From Sporopachydermia quercuum (lineage: Eukaryota; Ascomycota; Sporopachydermiomycetes; Sporopachydermiales; Sporopachydermiaceae), in assembly GCA_001599295.1 (NCBI GenBank), contig BCGN01000002.1, positions 372,001 through 436,000 of the forward strand: 64,000 bases of DNA, given 5' to 3'. The translations under genes and the position numbers were made by a program. The notes under the pieces were generated by a model. It ran no database searches, had not been told where the DNA came from, and was given only the letters and a program-made list of their open reading frames with translations. Of this stretch, positions 2,140 to 48,723 are shown one piece after another (positions within the stretch are counted from its first letter, which is position 1; each line of letters starts with the position of its first letter).

Positions 2140-4805
2140 CATTCTCGATATGGGAAACCAGCCATAAATATCCCATAAATAGTCGGTGGTAGATGCCAAA
2201 CACAGAAATCGACACTATATTAAAAATTAAACTACAAAAGAAATTATATGGGAGGTGTTCGACAAGCTGGAAAGCTGTGGTTCGATCCTTCACATCATTT
2301 TCACGAATGGCAGGAGTGCCGTGCTACTAGCAATCGATAATTATACAGACGGCATCGGGGGATATATATATATATATATAGTTATTGAAGAAGCTCAGAT
2401 TATGATGTTTACTGATCAGATTGTTGTAAGTATGGAATTAGATGTCAAAGTTTCGATCAGATTGTGTATCCAGATTGTAATTGATATTATATAGAGACAA
2501 GTGTATTGCTGATCCCTCAAACGTGGGCAGGCAGTACTTAATAAAAGAAGGATTATCTCCTTTTGGAAGGCAATCCTTTATCATTATTTTTGTCTAACTA
2601 CTTGTTTTGTTACTCGACATCATATTTGTTTTTACGAAAATCCAAGCTCGAAGCACAGTATTATTTTTATTCTTAACATGAAAATGTATTGCTTTGAGGA
2701 GGTATGTGGATACCGTGCGCCCCTTGACTTCGCTTCTACAGATACTGCTTATGAGAAATTCTATAAGATTNGGAAGTTCATTGGTGAAACTAGAGCTCAA
2801 TTCCGTGTCCACTAAGACCACGAGAATTTGAAATTCTAGGGGTAAAACGTCAGCAGTGTGTTTTGGAGGTGTCTGAACACCCTGTTTCAGAATATATAAT
2901 CAAAATGGGAAGTACTGAATTTGAAGTTGATGCATCTATTAAGAGAAAAGAGCATTGATAATAGTGTTACCATATTAGTATTCTTTTCCCCAGTCACTTC
3001 TCGATTTATTTCTCTTAGAATACTCTTCATATATTATACAATAATTGAGTATTATAATTTTCTCTGTTCCTATTTTCTTATACATAGAGCTTATTGTATT
3101 CCTGTCATATAGATATTAAGATTACCTGCTCCATTGATGATACCGATAACACATACCAATGATATGTCATGTCATTCGCATGTCTAGATATCATTCTGAT
3201 TGTCACCTCCAGCATTCATGTATTCTAAGCTGGTTGGTACACATTTCTCTCATGCTCTTATTGGTATGTTACTGCTAGCTGTGGGGTTTTGAAGAGTTTA
3301 TAAATATCATGCAACAGATCAATATCATAATCTAAGTTCACCATGAGAATACTATATTATACTATACTGACAGTCTAATTTTTCTAGTATTGACTGAGAA
3401 AAGAGAGAAGTTCAAATACGTGTGTTGCTAACATTTTCGTGCAACTTGCCAGAACTTACTGGAACATACTAGAACTTCCCGACCTTTCCAGGATAGTCTT
3501 TAACAACATATGATATGATATACAAGAAGAGTACCTCAGATTATTGCGGATTCTCTGGATATTCCAGTTTATTCTAAGAACCGGGGATTTGTGCTCCTAG
3601 ACTTAGGTTTCCCGATAGATCAAAAGAAAAGAAGGTACATGAATAAGGCCAACACCCTACGTGAACACACACACATTTCCGTCGAGCCAGCTGTAGTATC
3701 TCATGGAGCTAACCTTTAGTACTGTTTTCACGGTATCTTTAATCTGAGTAACAGTACCAATTTTGGCTAACAGTATCCTCTAAACTATTCTTGACTTTTC
3801 TCTAACCCACCGCACTTCTTTCTGCCGTGGAATGTGTAGCTCTATGTCAAGTCAATTGGAGACTGCTATTGGCTGTAAGTTACCGTTTGCTGGGTCAGGA
3901 TGACTCTGTGTTGAAGGTAGTAGTGTATGGACTCATGCCAAGTTTTCATCCGTACTCTGCAACGACTGCACTGCAGTTGGTACATACAGATTGGACACCT
4001 TTTCTCATTCATGCGAGACTGGGTAAGAAACTCATTTCAGCCCAGGGAGTTGGTAGTTAAAGATGTCCCGCTCGGATAATGGTAGGAGTATTTTACAATA
4101 GTATACTTGGTCAGTTCCTCTGTGAGCGTAGTAGTAATATTATTAATTTACCGTTCTCATTTGCCCATTAGAAAATGTGTCTAAGCAGTTCGATCGAATC
4201 ATTTAGGAGAACAATCAAACTTTGTAGGCCAGCTCTAGACTTCATGGGTGGTGACCTTGTCCTGGAGCGAGTACATGCAACTCTTTTCCTTCGTATAGAT
4301 TATTTCAATATTCCTTTGGACAGTGGTACGTGATATCGTCCGAACTATGATATGCTTTAACTCTATGAATATAAGTGGGTATACTTGTTCCCTGCAAAAA
4401 AACCTTGTTCCAACAATGGCTATTGCTGGTACTGCAGTACGGTATTAATTATATATAAGAACACATATCATATAATGTTATAATAATGGGTCAAACAAAT
4501 TAAATAATAAATCCAATGAAATTGAGAATACAATATTTCTAACAATTAGATGATAAAGGGAACTTGGAATATAATCAATGAATGTTGGCCTATCCCTCAA
4601 GAGACGTGACCACCATTGGTAAAACAAATTATTTGTTAAATAATTCGATACAGTCCTCACCATAAAGCCTGTTGTATTAATTAATGTTCAGGATCTCAGT
4701 CAGTTGCTTATTTCTAATGCTATGCCATCTTATGAAAATTCCTTCCCGGATTCCACTTCTTTTGAGATCCTACTTCTTTTTCAATGTTATCTCGTGTTAT
4801 GCATA

Positions 4806-43300: not shown

Positions 43301-44554
43301 GAATACTAAAGACCCCTAGCATTCAGCGAAGATCAATGTAAAAAAATCAGAACGGTAATTATAAAGTAGTACATCTCGTTGCAAGTTTAGTTTAGATGTT
43401 ATGTCATTGGACTAATTTTACCAATTTTTATTGCTTAAACAGAAATAACAGAAAGTAGGACAATTAGATGCGATTTTCAGTTAGTTAGTCCAGTGGAATC
43501 TAAAGTCAGACAAAAGTTGTCCGTCATATTTATAGAATTTTAGACAGAATGGTTTACGCCATGCTATCTGTAAATCTCACGACCTCTGTGAAGATTCTGC
43601 AAAGGTTAGATGAGTGGATATAGTTTGGAATTAGACTACTAGAACAATTACATATATATAAATTGTTCTTAAAATTCGATTCTTTGAGACAAGTAGTAGT
43701 GATGAGATAATTACTTTGCAAGAGATGTGATCTTTATCAAAAGGGGACAAGGGAGGCTTAGCGATTATAAGAACATGTATCTGATTACTCTTTGTATTTC
43801 CAATAGCGTTGATAAAATGCATATTTTATTATTTTCAGTTATTCTGCGATTTCACCTGTCGCTGGTACTTTTCCAACAATGTTTATTCTATTAAAATAAA
43901 AATTGAAATAAACTCCGTTTACTTAGGTTCACCATACATAAGAATAAACAACCGAAGGGCCCATGCTTATAGATCAATAAGAATTATATCTATATTTTTG
44001 TTATGTTTGGTCTGTAGTTTATGATTCAACTGTTTCATAAATGTATAGGAATTGATTATCACTTAACGATCTAAAAGCGTAAATATTCTACATCGTACTA
44101 ACAAATAGAAAGGATTAATCAAGCTTGTCACTACGATAGCTTCTGAGCTTACGATAAGATTCTCTATACTATTGAGATGAAGAAAAAGAACCGTTGAGTT
44201 AGTACGATGTCTAAAGACCTAACCCCCATCATTGAGAAGATGCAACCCTACACGTTCTGAAACAGTAAAACCCATTCAATTGCGTAACCATTATTAAAGC
44301 TTAAACGAACGCATAATGGGCATAATATAATGTGCATAATGTGTCCAACAACATGCTCAATATTTCTGGCGCGGTGGGACGCAGATTTATGCGCTACTTC
44401 CTTCTCTGAGGAACGCTGGGAGGAATAGGAAAAAGAAGGGAACTCGTTTCTTGAATAAAGGACTTCCAAACTACAATGGACATCATCATGAGGTTGCGCA
44501 AAGCTCATGCTCCGATTGAGATATCGCCCGTGATATCAGGAGCATAGTAATTCA
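40375..44554. other. Gene desert
   Basis: About 4.2 kb without a supported gene. Minus-strand frames near 42697-43073 and 43631-43822 and plus-strand 43809-44024 show no motif. A minus-strand frame at 44248-44508 (86 codons, ATG start) lies directly downstream of the transposase relic and may belong to the same element. One ambiguous base near 41648. Confidence 0.55.
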
Positions 44555-45545
44555 CCTACGTAAAGGAAAAAAGTCGTCCTTTTAAAACTTTTATTGATCT
44601 CTCGACCACCATCCTATGTCTGGAATGGATTAAATTGAAATATTCCTATTTGTTTGCAGGATCATCAGATCCTTTCGACCACTGATTAAGATAATATGGA
44701 ATTCTCCGATGTGGGGAAGGTACCTTGGCCGATAGACGATAGCCTGCATCCTCAAAAAAATAGTTGCTAGGGACATTGAATCCCTCAGTACACAAAACTT
44801 CTAGTACATGCCTTTCATGAGCTGAACCTTCGCACCCAGCTTTGACATACAGAAACTATTGATTGAAAACCACCAGAACGTTTATCGACCCAAAAGCCAT
44901 TCTATTCCTAAAGACTTCCATATTGCCTTTGATATTGACTGGAGCATGAGTTCCATCAAGTGCACCCAAACTATTACGAAGTAAAGGTGATTCTTTGCCA
45001 AACCATTAAANCTGAAACGGGTAAACTAATCCATTTTATCGCAAATTTCCTAAAGTACTTACACATCTTCCGGATGTAGGATCACCTCCGCCCTTCAATC
45101 TATGGGATCTTTTAGCATCCTATTTGAGTATCCATGTAATACAAACAAATAAATCGCTAGCTCCTCACGGGCTGTTACAGATTTAAATCTCCAAGACCGA
45201 AATTATATAATTTTCTTCTCAAATCATAAGTGTTATTCTATTCATATGCCCTTTCTCGTCAAGCTACCATAGCTTGCAAGAAGATTTGTAAATTAAGGAT
45301 TACCAAATATCCACTTGTAAGATTTCCCTTTTCCAGCTCTTCTTTACTTTCGAAGCTCGATGACAAGTTCAATGATTTCAACTACCCTGGCACATCGAAT
45401 ATAGAACCCGATATTGTCGTTGCTATTGTGTTGATCAATATCATCCTCCAGAAACTCATCACCGGACGAGGAACCACTTTCGGAACCCGAAATTCCGGAC
45501 TGCTCAGATATTATATCTGCTTCAAATTCAATGAGTATCTTTCAA
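44555..45545 (-). mobile_element. PIF/Harbinger-type DNA transposon relic (DDE transposase)
   Basis: Minus-strand pieces in different frames match successive parts of a Harbinger transposase. From 5' to 3': an acidic Ser-rich stretch (45345-45540) as in many family N-termini; AREELAIYLFVLHGYSNRM (about 45100-45186); LGALDGTHAPV with the first catalytic Asp (about 44862-45003); YVKAGCEGSAHERHVLE and FFEDAGYRLSAKV with the second Asp (about 44655-44860); and MVVERSIKVLKGRLFSF with the catalytic Glu (about 44555-44619). At least three frame changes and several stops separate the pieces, so no transposase can be made. The order and the intact D, D, E positions make the family call firm. Terminal inverted repeats and the usual 3-bp target duplication were not located. 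One ambiguous base at about 45011. Confidence 0.8.
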
Positions 45546-45749
45546 ATCCACCGCTATGCTCAAGGCAGACCAACTAGCGTTATTCTCGCTTTCTGCGTTC
45601 GGCCAGATTAGCGCAGGCAATTGGAGGCCTCCTCAACGAATTTTTCCCATTCCGAATCACCATTGACATCGGCCAAGAACCGACACGAGTGAAGTAATCG
45701 TGTCAGGAGCGGTGACAGCTTTCAATCCGCAAGCACCATTAAATAAATA
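45546..45749. other. Short GC-rich spacer between transposase and GST relics
   Basis: About 200 bp, less AT-rich than the surroundings. A minus-strand frame reads VNGDSEWEKFVEEASNCLR and then stops. It may belong to either neighbour. No family recognised. Confidence 0.4.
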
Positions 45750-46670
45750 TCAGGCTTGCGAGCGGACTATCTCGAATATCAGAAGCGTGGAAAGTGGAAA
45801 GTGGACGACAGTTGTTCCCGCATACGGGTCTTCTTTTTCGATCGCGACTTCACGCGTTGCCAGTGTTACCAGCTTGCATTTGACGGGAACACAGCCATAA
45901 TCGGTCGGCGTTACGTCCACGAGAGCGACTGCGCTTAATCCAAGAGGTTCAAGCGAATCAACGACCTTTTCACTGGAAGACTGGCCGTGTCTGGCAATCG
46001 CGATAGCATCCTCCCGTGTGATCGGTGTTGGCTCTCCTGTCCGGTAAGGCGGACACGTTCTTCCCATTGGGTCAGGTGAGGCAATTGAGAGAATATTTCC
46101 TCTGTCGCGCGCACGAATAATCGGGTTGTCCATAGTTGCGCATATCTTTCCATATCTGCGAGATTGGGAGAGTCTCTAACCCAAAGCGGTCTTTGATCCG
46201 ATAACTGTTTGTCGATTATCGCGCGATGTGACGGCAATACCGACAGGAGACAAGGGATTTCGCCATCAAGCGCATCAATATCCATGAATGACCTGAAGTA
46301 CTTTTTCCTGTCCTGCATCAGCTCGGGAGGGAAAGACCTCTTGCTGTCGCCGATGGCAAGCCCCGAACACACCGTCAGAAGGTTGCGGTCAGTGGAAGAA
46401 TTTAGGGTAGTGCATATTCCGTAAGTCGAATCTGGAAAAAGGGTCTTTTCTGAGAACCGCCTTTCAAGTTCCTCAGCTATTAGCTGGAAATTACAATAAA
46501 TATCGGTGTCTATCTGCGTTACCGGAGTTTTCCGATACCCGCCTGTTAGAGCGGTTAGTTTCGGCTTTGGCAAGAGGATTTCCGCATCAAACGATAGTCA
46601 TGACTGACTTTTGTGGCAAGGACCAACAGAACTTTTCAGTAAAAGGCAATGATGCAAAACGATGCGGCAT
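45750..46670 (-). pseudogene. Decayed glutathione S-transferase gene of bacterial type
   Basis: Minus-strand pieces cover the whole length of a two-domain GST-family protein common in proteobacteria. The start near 46670 reads towards IVLHHC (family ILHHYPxSPFSEKVR), then in the next frame FTEKFCWSLPQKS, then PKPKLTALTGGYRKTPV, DIYCNFQLIAEELERRF and LFPDSTYG (frame to about 46040). After another frame change come GEPTPITREDAIAIARHG, VDVTPTDYGCVPVKCKLV and TTVVHFP to a stop at 45750. The thioredoxin-fold part with TPV/IYC and the C-terminal VTVTPDDYG-like domain are both visible. At least three frameshifts make it non-functional. Base composition is clearly richer in GC than flanking DNA and codon choice differs from neighbouring genes. 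Horizontal acquisition from a bacterium is the likely origin. Misassembly is a less likely alternative. Confidence 0.78.
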
Positions 46671-48723
46671 CACTTCAGTCATTGTTGCAATACAGATTAT
46701 GATGTATTAGAGTATATTATAATAATGAAAAGTTTGTATTTGTGAGCTTTTTTATGGCCTAATAGCAATCAAGTCAAGAGAACTTTGATGCTAGTAAATA
46801 AAGGTTCTAAATAGATCCTGAATTGAGTCTTGGTGTAACTATGTTAGTTACCCGTCCTTTGAAGAAATTGATGAAAATAAGGAGGTAAAAAAAACTAAGA
46901 CAGTAGAAAATAAGAAAATATGCAGTTAAACAATGGTAAACAACGGACGCTATCTTATTGAATTTGGGATATTTCCCAATATGATATTACAGAGATTGTA
47001 CAATCAAATAAGAGTTTCTCCATATTATTTTACTAACCTCTAACTACCATGACCATTCCTTAATCACCGGCTATCTACGTAGAATTGTAAATTGTCTCTC
47101 GGCTTGTTTTGAGCCACTTCTGTAATGAATAAGTTTCTACTATATTTCACAATGAACAGTAATTGTATCTGCCCAATTAAGTCCATTGACCTACTTAACT
47201 GGTAAATATGTCACGTGAATATATGGGACATTTTTTGTTACTATATGGTAATTAACCCTTAACAACAACCACCACCAACACCAAAGTTCAATGACATCAT
47301 GGCAAACGCGTACTATTAGAGATTAGAATTCTCTGACATTCCCGTGGTTGAGCTTTTTGTCGTAATACTAATTAATTAATATTCAAGACAAAGTTGCCTA
47401 TACAACGGACACATTATCACCTCATGAATATATAGAGCGATGTAAGCAAAGAATGTTTCAATCATAATGGAATTAATTTACATTGAATCGCTGTTAAAAT
47501 AAGTTGGATAAAAAATGTATCGATCCTTGATGAGCAAAATAGTAAACTAAGTGTCTAGAATTGAAAAGGAAGATGGAAAGAAGAATTAACACCTAGCCAA
47601 ATATTAATCCCTGAGTTTTATTCTAAGATCTATGCGAATTATTTATGATTTGATTTGTCCGAAAATTTGAGATTATATAGATTCTCCTAAAATACTTTGC
47701 TTGAATCTTCCTAAGTACTCCTTAAAAAAATGAATGAGACATAGTTAAGCTTTAGAAAGCTTAACTAAGTAGTTCAAGCAAACTTTGTAGGAGTCAAATG
47801 TATTTTATACATTTGGAATTTTAGTTACTATCAGTACATCACGTACCTAGTTTCACTAATATTTTAGTACGCTTCGATATAGCTTTGGCGCGTTGAAAGA
47901 TTAACGCTATTGTTAATATTTCAACAAACTTATAATAAGAATTTTAGCATTTCTGAAGCTTCTTTAAAGTTTGGACTATATTCTGTATCCACCAAAACTT
48001 TAGGAATAGAAGATCTCCATAGCGATTTTTGATGCAATTGAAATTAATTTTGTTTGAAGCTCAAAATACTTGAAGTTCATATTAATATAATTCTGTTCCC
48101 ATTCCAAAGAATTCTTCATCACCTCGATAATTGAGTACTAGAAACCTCTTCCTTTTGTTTCTCATTCTTTCAATAACTCAAAGTCACAAAGAGGTATTCA
48201 ACAACCTGAGAATTCTCATTGATTGTATGTCACAAATAAGAGTTGTATTTTTTTTCCCCTTCACTTGCTAGATCATACATTGGTTTTTTGAGAGCTTTCC
48301 AATAATTGGGAAAAGCTGGTATAGTCAAGACATAAGTACCAGGGGTTTCAATCAATGATTCATTCGTTCACTAATATTACAAATTAATCTATTCACTCGC
48401 TTCTTTGAATCATCTTGAAACATTCTCTACCTCGAATTAGATCTGATATTGTAATTGCATTCCTTTCGTTTCATTTCCTGATCTATACATGATTTAATGT
48501 TCATGCTATAGTTCTATAATTTTCAAACAATTTGATTAATTTCCCCCTTCTTTAGACTTGCATTTTTGGTGGATTTTTGTTGATTTTCTTTTTCTATTTT
48601 TCATTTACATGGGCAAACTTGGTTTTGGGTTAGATATCATTCATTAAAACTATTACTACTTGTATTTCATCAAGGAAGATAATTTGAGCTAGCATTTAGA
48701 CATAACGGTCGATATTATACATA
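46671..48723. other. Intergenic, long upstream region of CLN3
   Basis: About 2 kb of AT-rich DNA without a supported gene. The last 250 bp contain three short upstream reading frames (48489-48497, 48497-48511 and 48609-48647). T-rich tracts near 48240-48260 and 48540-48600 fit a large regulated promoter and long leader. Confidence 0.55.
48609..48647 (+). promoter_or_regulatory. Candidate upstream ORF (12 codons) before CLN3
   Basis: ATG GGC ... TAA, 12 codons, ends 76 bp before the cyclin ATG. Two still shorter ATG frames lie at 48489-48497 and 48497-48511. Saccharomyces CLN3 has a translation-limiting upstream ORF, so the parallel is of interest. The transcription start is unknown, so it is not certain that these lie in the mRNA. 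Confidence 0.4.

Follow-up and report, generated by a model that had tools for sequence, protein, structure and literature searches.

The window (the whole 64-kb stretch of DNA that was analysed) carries on its minus strand a gene of the glutathione S-transferase (GST) family, readable at full length in a six-frame reading from an ATG at 46,682-46,680 to a stop codon at 45,752-45,750. The N-terminus lies in frame 0; the reading continues in frame 1 (LTALTGGYRKTP...IYC, open from 46,597 to 45,938) and returns to frame 0 for the C-terminal region PTDYG...VVHFP...RSQA, which ends at the stop, so that the protein is covered by two frames and a short third-frame stretch near the end. The gene (45,750-46,682) is disrupted by two frame changes, one near 46,590 and the other near 46,040, neither of them compensated. 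The longest open piece (45,938-46,597, minus strand) has 220 codons; GST sequence can be read in roughly the first 186, and the remainder are out of frame; the other piece (45,753-46,175, minus strand) lies in a different frame and represents the C-terminal region from about 46,037 on. These two overlapping pieces are the only ATG-initiated open reading frames of at least 120 amino acids between 40,374 and 48,724. Several long conserved genes elsewhere in the window are open, which makes gross base errors an unlikely cause of the broken frame. Judged from its reading frame, the GST copy is a pseudogene, from which no product would be expected.

The N-terminal GST domain profile PF13409 matches the main piece at E 0.055 (14.5 bits, below the cut-off of 25), and no C-domain GST profile matched the yeast pieces themselves; in the Acetobacter relative described below, the C-terminal domain is recognised by GST_C (25.1 bits, cut-off 20.7) and GST_C_3 (22.7 bits, cut-off 21.6), with GST_C_2 marginally below its cut-off. 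The preliminary description had called the DNA richer in GC than its surroundings, and this is confirmed by the base composition: the two 1-kb bins holding the gene, at 0.436 and 0.424, are the top two of the 64 in the window (next 0.415), and nine of the ten 100-bp bins from 45,600 to 46,599 lie at 0.47-0.57 (one at 0.39), followed by bins at 0.40 and 0.27. The assembly of the window contains eight isolated single Ns, for example at position 45011.

The surroundings had been taken for a gene desert. Comparison with the rest of the genome replaces that claim: in the assembly the GST segment interrupts a dead DNA transposon at about 43,809-46,951, other copies of which occur at five loci without the insert. 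The sequence 43,500-45,760 matches nine further places at these five loci, every match ending at or before 45,546, and the copies there are 69-80% identical to that in the window. When the whole window is compared, a second match resumes in each of the five loci, at 46,686-46,688 in three of them and at 46,691 and 46,700 in the others (46,686-46,700 overall), about 4 bases from the ATG at 46,682. The gap between the two matches is 8, 10, 14, 34 and 61 bases in the other loci versus about 1.14 kb in the window. Bounded in this way by the other transposon copies, the entire foreign insert spans 45,546-46,686 (no strand assigned). Aligned with its flanks joined, the window copy is short of about 7 transposon bases at the site of insertion, and a target duplication is not apparent.

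The left arm of the degenerate transposon (43,809-45,545, minus strand; copy comparison and profile search) consists of an inverted terminal repeat and transposase remnants, and the right arm (46,687-46,951, minus strand; copy comparison) lies upstream of the transposase and carries the other inverted terminal repeat. The two repeats, 43,809-43,836 and 46,906-46,933, are 28 bases long and 86% identical, and other copies carry them at their ends too. The family, with its inverted terminal repeats, was seen at six loci including the window (43809-46951; the others are L032, L033, L034, L036 and L037), and in two of the five other copies the middle of the element contains about 0.7-0.8 kb that is absent from the window copy. 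A related copy (L032:1472-1930) matches the DDE_Tnp_4 profile PF13359 (33.7 bits, cut-off 24.8; 3.5e-8). The window's own transposase pieces had no Pfam match alone, though pieces of the GALDGTHAPV type look alike. DNA transposons with a Pfam DDE_Tnp_4 transposase are labelled PIF/Harbinger, and the element probably belongs to this class; it resembles PIF/Harbinger DNA transposons in the PF13359 match of the related copy and in its inverted terminal repeats, and differs from them in that the copies seen here are degenerate, with neither an intact element nor the 3-bp target duplication of the class established among them.

A tblastn search of 72,556 plasmid records with the yeast GST found seven matching records. 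The closest was from Acetobacter ascendens, matched in two pieces at 66.9% protein identity (E 8e-27), and the other six stood at 27-33% identity; a Rhodobacteraceae plasmid match had a tblastn E of 9e-26. A second plasmid search again gave seven records, with Acetobacter alone close. The A. ascendens plasmid is also the only record matched at the DNA level (blastn, E 5e-118; 76.8% across 59% of the query), and in a local alignment 462 of 601 columns (77%) are identical, covering 45,698-46,293 of the window (minus strand) and running about 50 bases beyond the common stop codon. These two matches and the six-frame reading bear out the original proposal of a full-length GST-family protein split over frames. 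In the tree alignment, the yeast and Acetobacter proteins are 70% identical over 173 columns. The plasmid, pAP1447-1, is typed as conjugative (relaxases MOBF and MOBP, MPF_I). Its gene, annotated "glutathione binding-like protein" (WP_087636480.1, NZ_CP021525.1 45,291-45,818), shares with the yeast copy the 77% DNA identity, the stop codon and the 3' flank of about 50 bases, but it is without the N-terminal half, whereas the yeast copy is full length and frame-broken. The A. ascendens coding sequence (4010-4537 of the fetched locus L002) covers just the C-terminal portion of what is a longer gene, and upstream of it within that locus there was no match to the N-terminal half of the yeast copy.

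Filamentous fungi have GSTs of this general type, so a native fungal gene chancing to resemble bacterial ones has to be considered. The 77% DNA identity to Acetobacter, which includes 3' non-coding DNA, speaks against it, as do the yeast's own GST_N_2 genes (five matches in the genome, three over the cut-off), which are too distantly related for the GST piece to find them. The main piece and its DNA are single-copy in the 16.4-Mb, 12-contig yeast assembly, where nothing else matched the piece even at E 10; the comparison with fungal GSTs that the preliminary description had proposed covers this yeast genome only. A native origin is scarcely conceivable on these grounds, and we rejected it.

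The 3' end of the gene has further bacterial counterparts. A 122-base 3' relic, 99% identical to the A. ascendens sequence, is present in four of 397 Acetobacteraceae genomes, Gluconobacter thailandicus and Novacetimonas maltaceti among them. The yeast copy is identical to the Gluconobacter/Novacetimonas relic at 86 of 119 columns, and the similarity extends to an inverted repeat beyond the gene (45,680-45,706, minus strand). In G. thailandicus this repeat folds at -27.9 kcal/mol (z -4.1, none of 200 shuffles as good). In the yeast copy the hairpin is weak and by itself falls short of significance (z -1.5; 17 of 200 shuffles do as well), and the A. ascendens copy has not kept it (z 0.2, 112 of 200). 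The repeat resembles a transcription terminator, and what is left of it in the yeast may be the remnant of such a bacterial element. Because the similarity reaches beyond the stop codon into the inverted repeat, non-coding bacterial DNA was carried over along with the gene. Beyond the hairpin, the end of the insert (45,546-45,679, 134 bases) is GC-rich and has no match in the plasmids or elsewhere in the yeast genome. The relic of G. thailandicus and N. maltaceti lies in a 3-kb block (L012 4617-7599, L013 125-3119) that is 98.4% identical between the two, which by its sequence appears to be a recent exchange between the genera Gluconobacter and Novacetimonas.

All other relatives are distant. 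GST relatives occur in 14 of the 397 Acetobacteraceae genomes and in eight of 391 genomes of a second, overlapping set for which 95% completeness was asked (seven of these eight were already in the first), none above 36% identity. Among 385 alphaproteobacterial genomes, 37 have relatives at E 1e-20, the best at 38%, and the distant relatives from the Acetobacteraceae and alphaproteobacterial sets together range from 28 to 38%. At the genus level the DNA search covered Gluconobacter, where one of 26 genomes matched through the 3' relic. Genome contigs searched with the yeast GST piece gave 102 pattern matches, none of them confirmed, and with the Acetobacter protein 75 pattern matches, 11 of which are relatives (nine from Pseudomonadaceae at 29-36% and two 20-residue relics). 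None of five viral contig matches was confirmed as a GST relative and no relative was found in phages, and a phage origin of the segment was rejected. A full-length close donor gene was not found among the genome contigs, the plasmids, the 397 and 391 Acetobacteraceae genomes or the 385 alphaproteobacterial genomes. The two-domain GST-like proteins of Proteobacteria, of which 4kf9 and 3ic8 are solved examples, have in common with the yeast copy the LTGGYR-TP and DIYC motifs, the N- and C-terminal GST domains and the C-terminal tail, and 4kf9 matches residues 5-186 at E 2e-13, but these proteins are only about 30-38% identical to it.

A quick tree was built from 46 rows: 44 distant relatives, the Acetobacter copy and, as the only fungal sequence, the yeast read-through. 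It joins the yeast and Acetobacter copies with an SH-aLRT of 100 on a long common stem of 1.23, as the preliminary proposal of a bacterial gene would have it; the yeast branch measures 0.31 and the Acetobacter branch 0.047, and the composition of the yeast row was flagged as odd. Within this sampling, the closest relatives of the copy are bacterial and its place in the tree is among bacteria. The truncated A. ascendens copy and the three-prime relics narrow the likely donor to the acetic acid bacteria.

A bacterial contaminant or an assembly chimera might also put such DNA into a yeast contig, and the single Ns of the assembly, eight of them in the window, could be read in its favour. However, the insert is short (about 1.1 kb), lies mid-contig (contig C2, 417.5-418.7 kb) and is frame-broken, no near-identical bacterial match was found, and the flanking sequences make up the two halves of a single yeast repeat that is continuous at five other loci. 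A contaminating or chimeric join is very unlikely in the light of these observations and was rejected. In the assembly the segment sits inside a yeast repeat, and it is probably physically integrated in a yeast chromosome.

The gene broken in this way has not diverged as neutral sequence over its entire separation from Acetobacter. The yeast and Acetobacter copies differ at 30, 27 and 61 sites at codon positions 1, 2 and 3, and dN/dS is 0.25 (bootstrap 0.15-0.37; 176 codons), well away from the value near 1 of neutral evolution. The yeast read-through has no in-frame stop. Together, the low dN/dS and the lack of stops indicate that most of the divergence arose while the sequence was constrained, whether in bacteria or in the yeast. 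Among columns conserved in at least 80% of the 44 relatives, departures confined to the yeast copy number six and those confined to the Acetobacter copy none (p 0.03), and among columns conserved in 70% the counts are eight versus one (p 0.04); looser cut-offs give 9 versus 3, 10 versus 4 and 12 versus 6, which are not significant (p 0.15-0.24). The yeast-only departures at the 80% cut-off match the expectation for a gene released from constraint. In a simulation of neutral change over 300 codons, the chance of zero stops is 0.05 at 10% change and 0.025 at 13%. With no in-frame stop present, the neutral change accumulated since the gene was inactivated is therefore bounded at roughly 10% and the loss of function is fairly recent, although dating by stops gives an upper bound only. 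An earlier statement that the transfer was not ancient, made from compositional contrast, thus holds in part: the loss of function is limited in this manner, but neither this bound nor the compositional contrast alone dates the transfer.

The constraint might have been exerted in the yeast, where the GST would have served after transfer as a functional xenologue and died recently. This is possible, though we do not hold it to be the probable course. It would account for the dN/dS of 0.25 against the Acetobacter copy, the absence of in-frame stops, the longer yeast branch and the third-position GC (GC3), which is 0.49 in the yeast GST versus 0.64 in the Acetobacter copy with no such gap at codon positions 1 and 2; the transposon 5' region also lies immediately upstream of the insert, which leaves about 4 bases ahead of the start codon. 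A lower-GC donor lineage diverging within bacteria, however, would yield identical numbers. The GST shares its strand with the transposase. In a more specific scenario, a bacterial coding region joined almost precisely at its start codon to the transposon 5' region in transposase orientation would have been transcribed from the transposon promoter and held under purifying selection in the yeast, its third positions drifting to yeast composition, until it was recently lost. If true, such an expression trap would be a natural example of a promoterless bacterial gene gaining expression on arrival in a eukaryote, but we consider it unlikely. The nearness of the start codon to the transposon end may be chance. 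Distant bacterial relatives start with equal spacing, for example MSEIILHHYPESPISEK versus MTEVMPHRFASLPFTEK, a regularity that is partly built in, because the script that chose their starts took whichever methionine lay closest to the expected distance.

The GST could, alternatively, have been broken in a bacterium before transfer. Its acetic-acid-bacterial relatives are themselves debris, namely the N-terminally truncated A. ascendens copy and the 122-base relic in four of the 397 genomes. Since the yeast gene is complete at both of its ends, and no bacterial sequence found shows either frame change, we find prior breakage rather unlikely and infer that the gene was broken in the yeast.

Taken together, the bacterial relationship, the DNA match beyond the gene end, the position inside a repeat and the broken frame are, within the limits of the assembly, direct readings of the sequence, and they support the view of the preliminary description that a horizontally acquired bacterial gene has decayed here. 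It is proposed, with considerable confidence, that the locus is a relic of bacterial DNA passed to a yeast, in which a transposon copy took up acetic-acid-bacterial GST DNA at the site of a break, the frame of the gene being lost later. The donor piece, now 45,546-46,686, would have been DNA of an acetic acid bacterium, probably plasmid-borne, with the complete GST gene and the downstream hairpin, and a conjugative plasmid may have served as the vehicle. Capture presumably took place by end joining at a break within the yeast transposon copy, at the cost of about 7 transposon bases and without leaving a visible target duplication. Two later frame changes would then have turned the gene into a pseudogene.

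Concerning the host, the paralogue letters at CTG codons in nine chaperonin genes are hydrophobic in 92 of 138 cases (11 S/T, 6 A/G, 29 other), and the mostly hydrophobic character of these sites shows that CTG is read as leucine in this yeast. Among solved structures, NUCM of 6gcs, from Yarrowia, comes closest to its complex I 49-kDa subunit. The yeast probably belongs to a lineage other than Wickerhamiella/Starmerella.

Most reported bacterial genes in yeasts are old survivors. Here the DNA still aligns at 77%, non-coding sequence from the bacterial 3' flank can be made out, each junction is located to within a few bases, and other transposon copies reveal the landing site. The locus thus offers a tractable example of a transfer that failed to last, with a candidate vehicle (a plasmid gene of fermentation bacteria), the landing site and the decay in one place. 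The kind of event is already known, and this is a clean new case of it; no report of this GST gene was among the literature matches listed. Horizontally acquired insertions, one of them adjoining a segmental duplication, are described from the Genolevures yeasts (PMC2715888), and DNA has been transferred from bacteria to yeast by conjugation in the laboratory (PMC3772842, PMC4958254). A 2026 study of the Wickerhamiella/Starmerella clade reports no acquired protein above 70% identity to its putative donors (PMC13376923). A close parallel is the working SUC2 and ADH1 genes of Acetobacteraceae origin in Wickerhamiella/Starmerella yeasts (PMC5897096), which share with the present locus the direction of transfer from Acetobacteraceae to yeast; those are working metabolic genes, whereas the gene described here is a single broken one inside a transposon.
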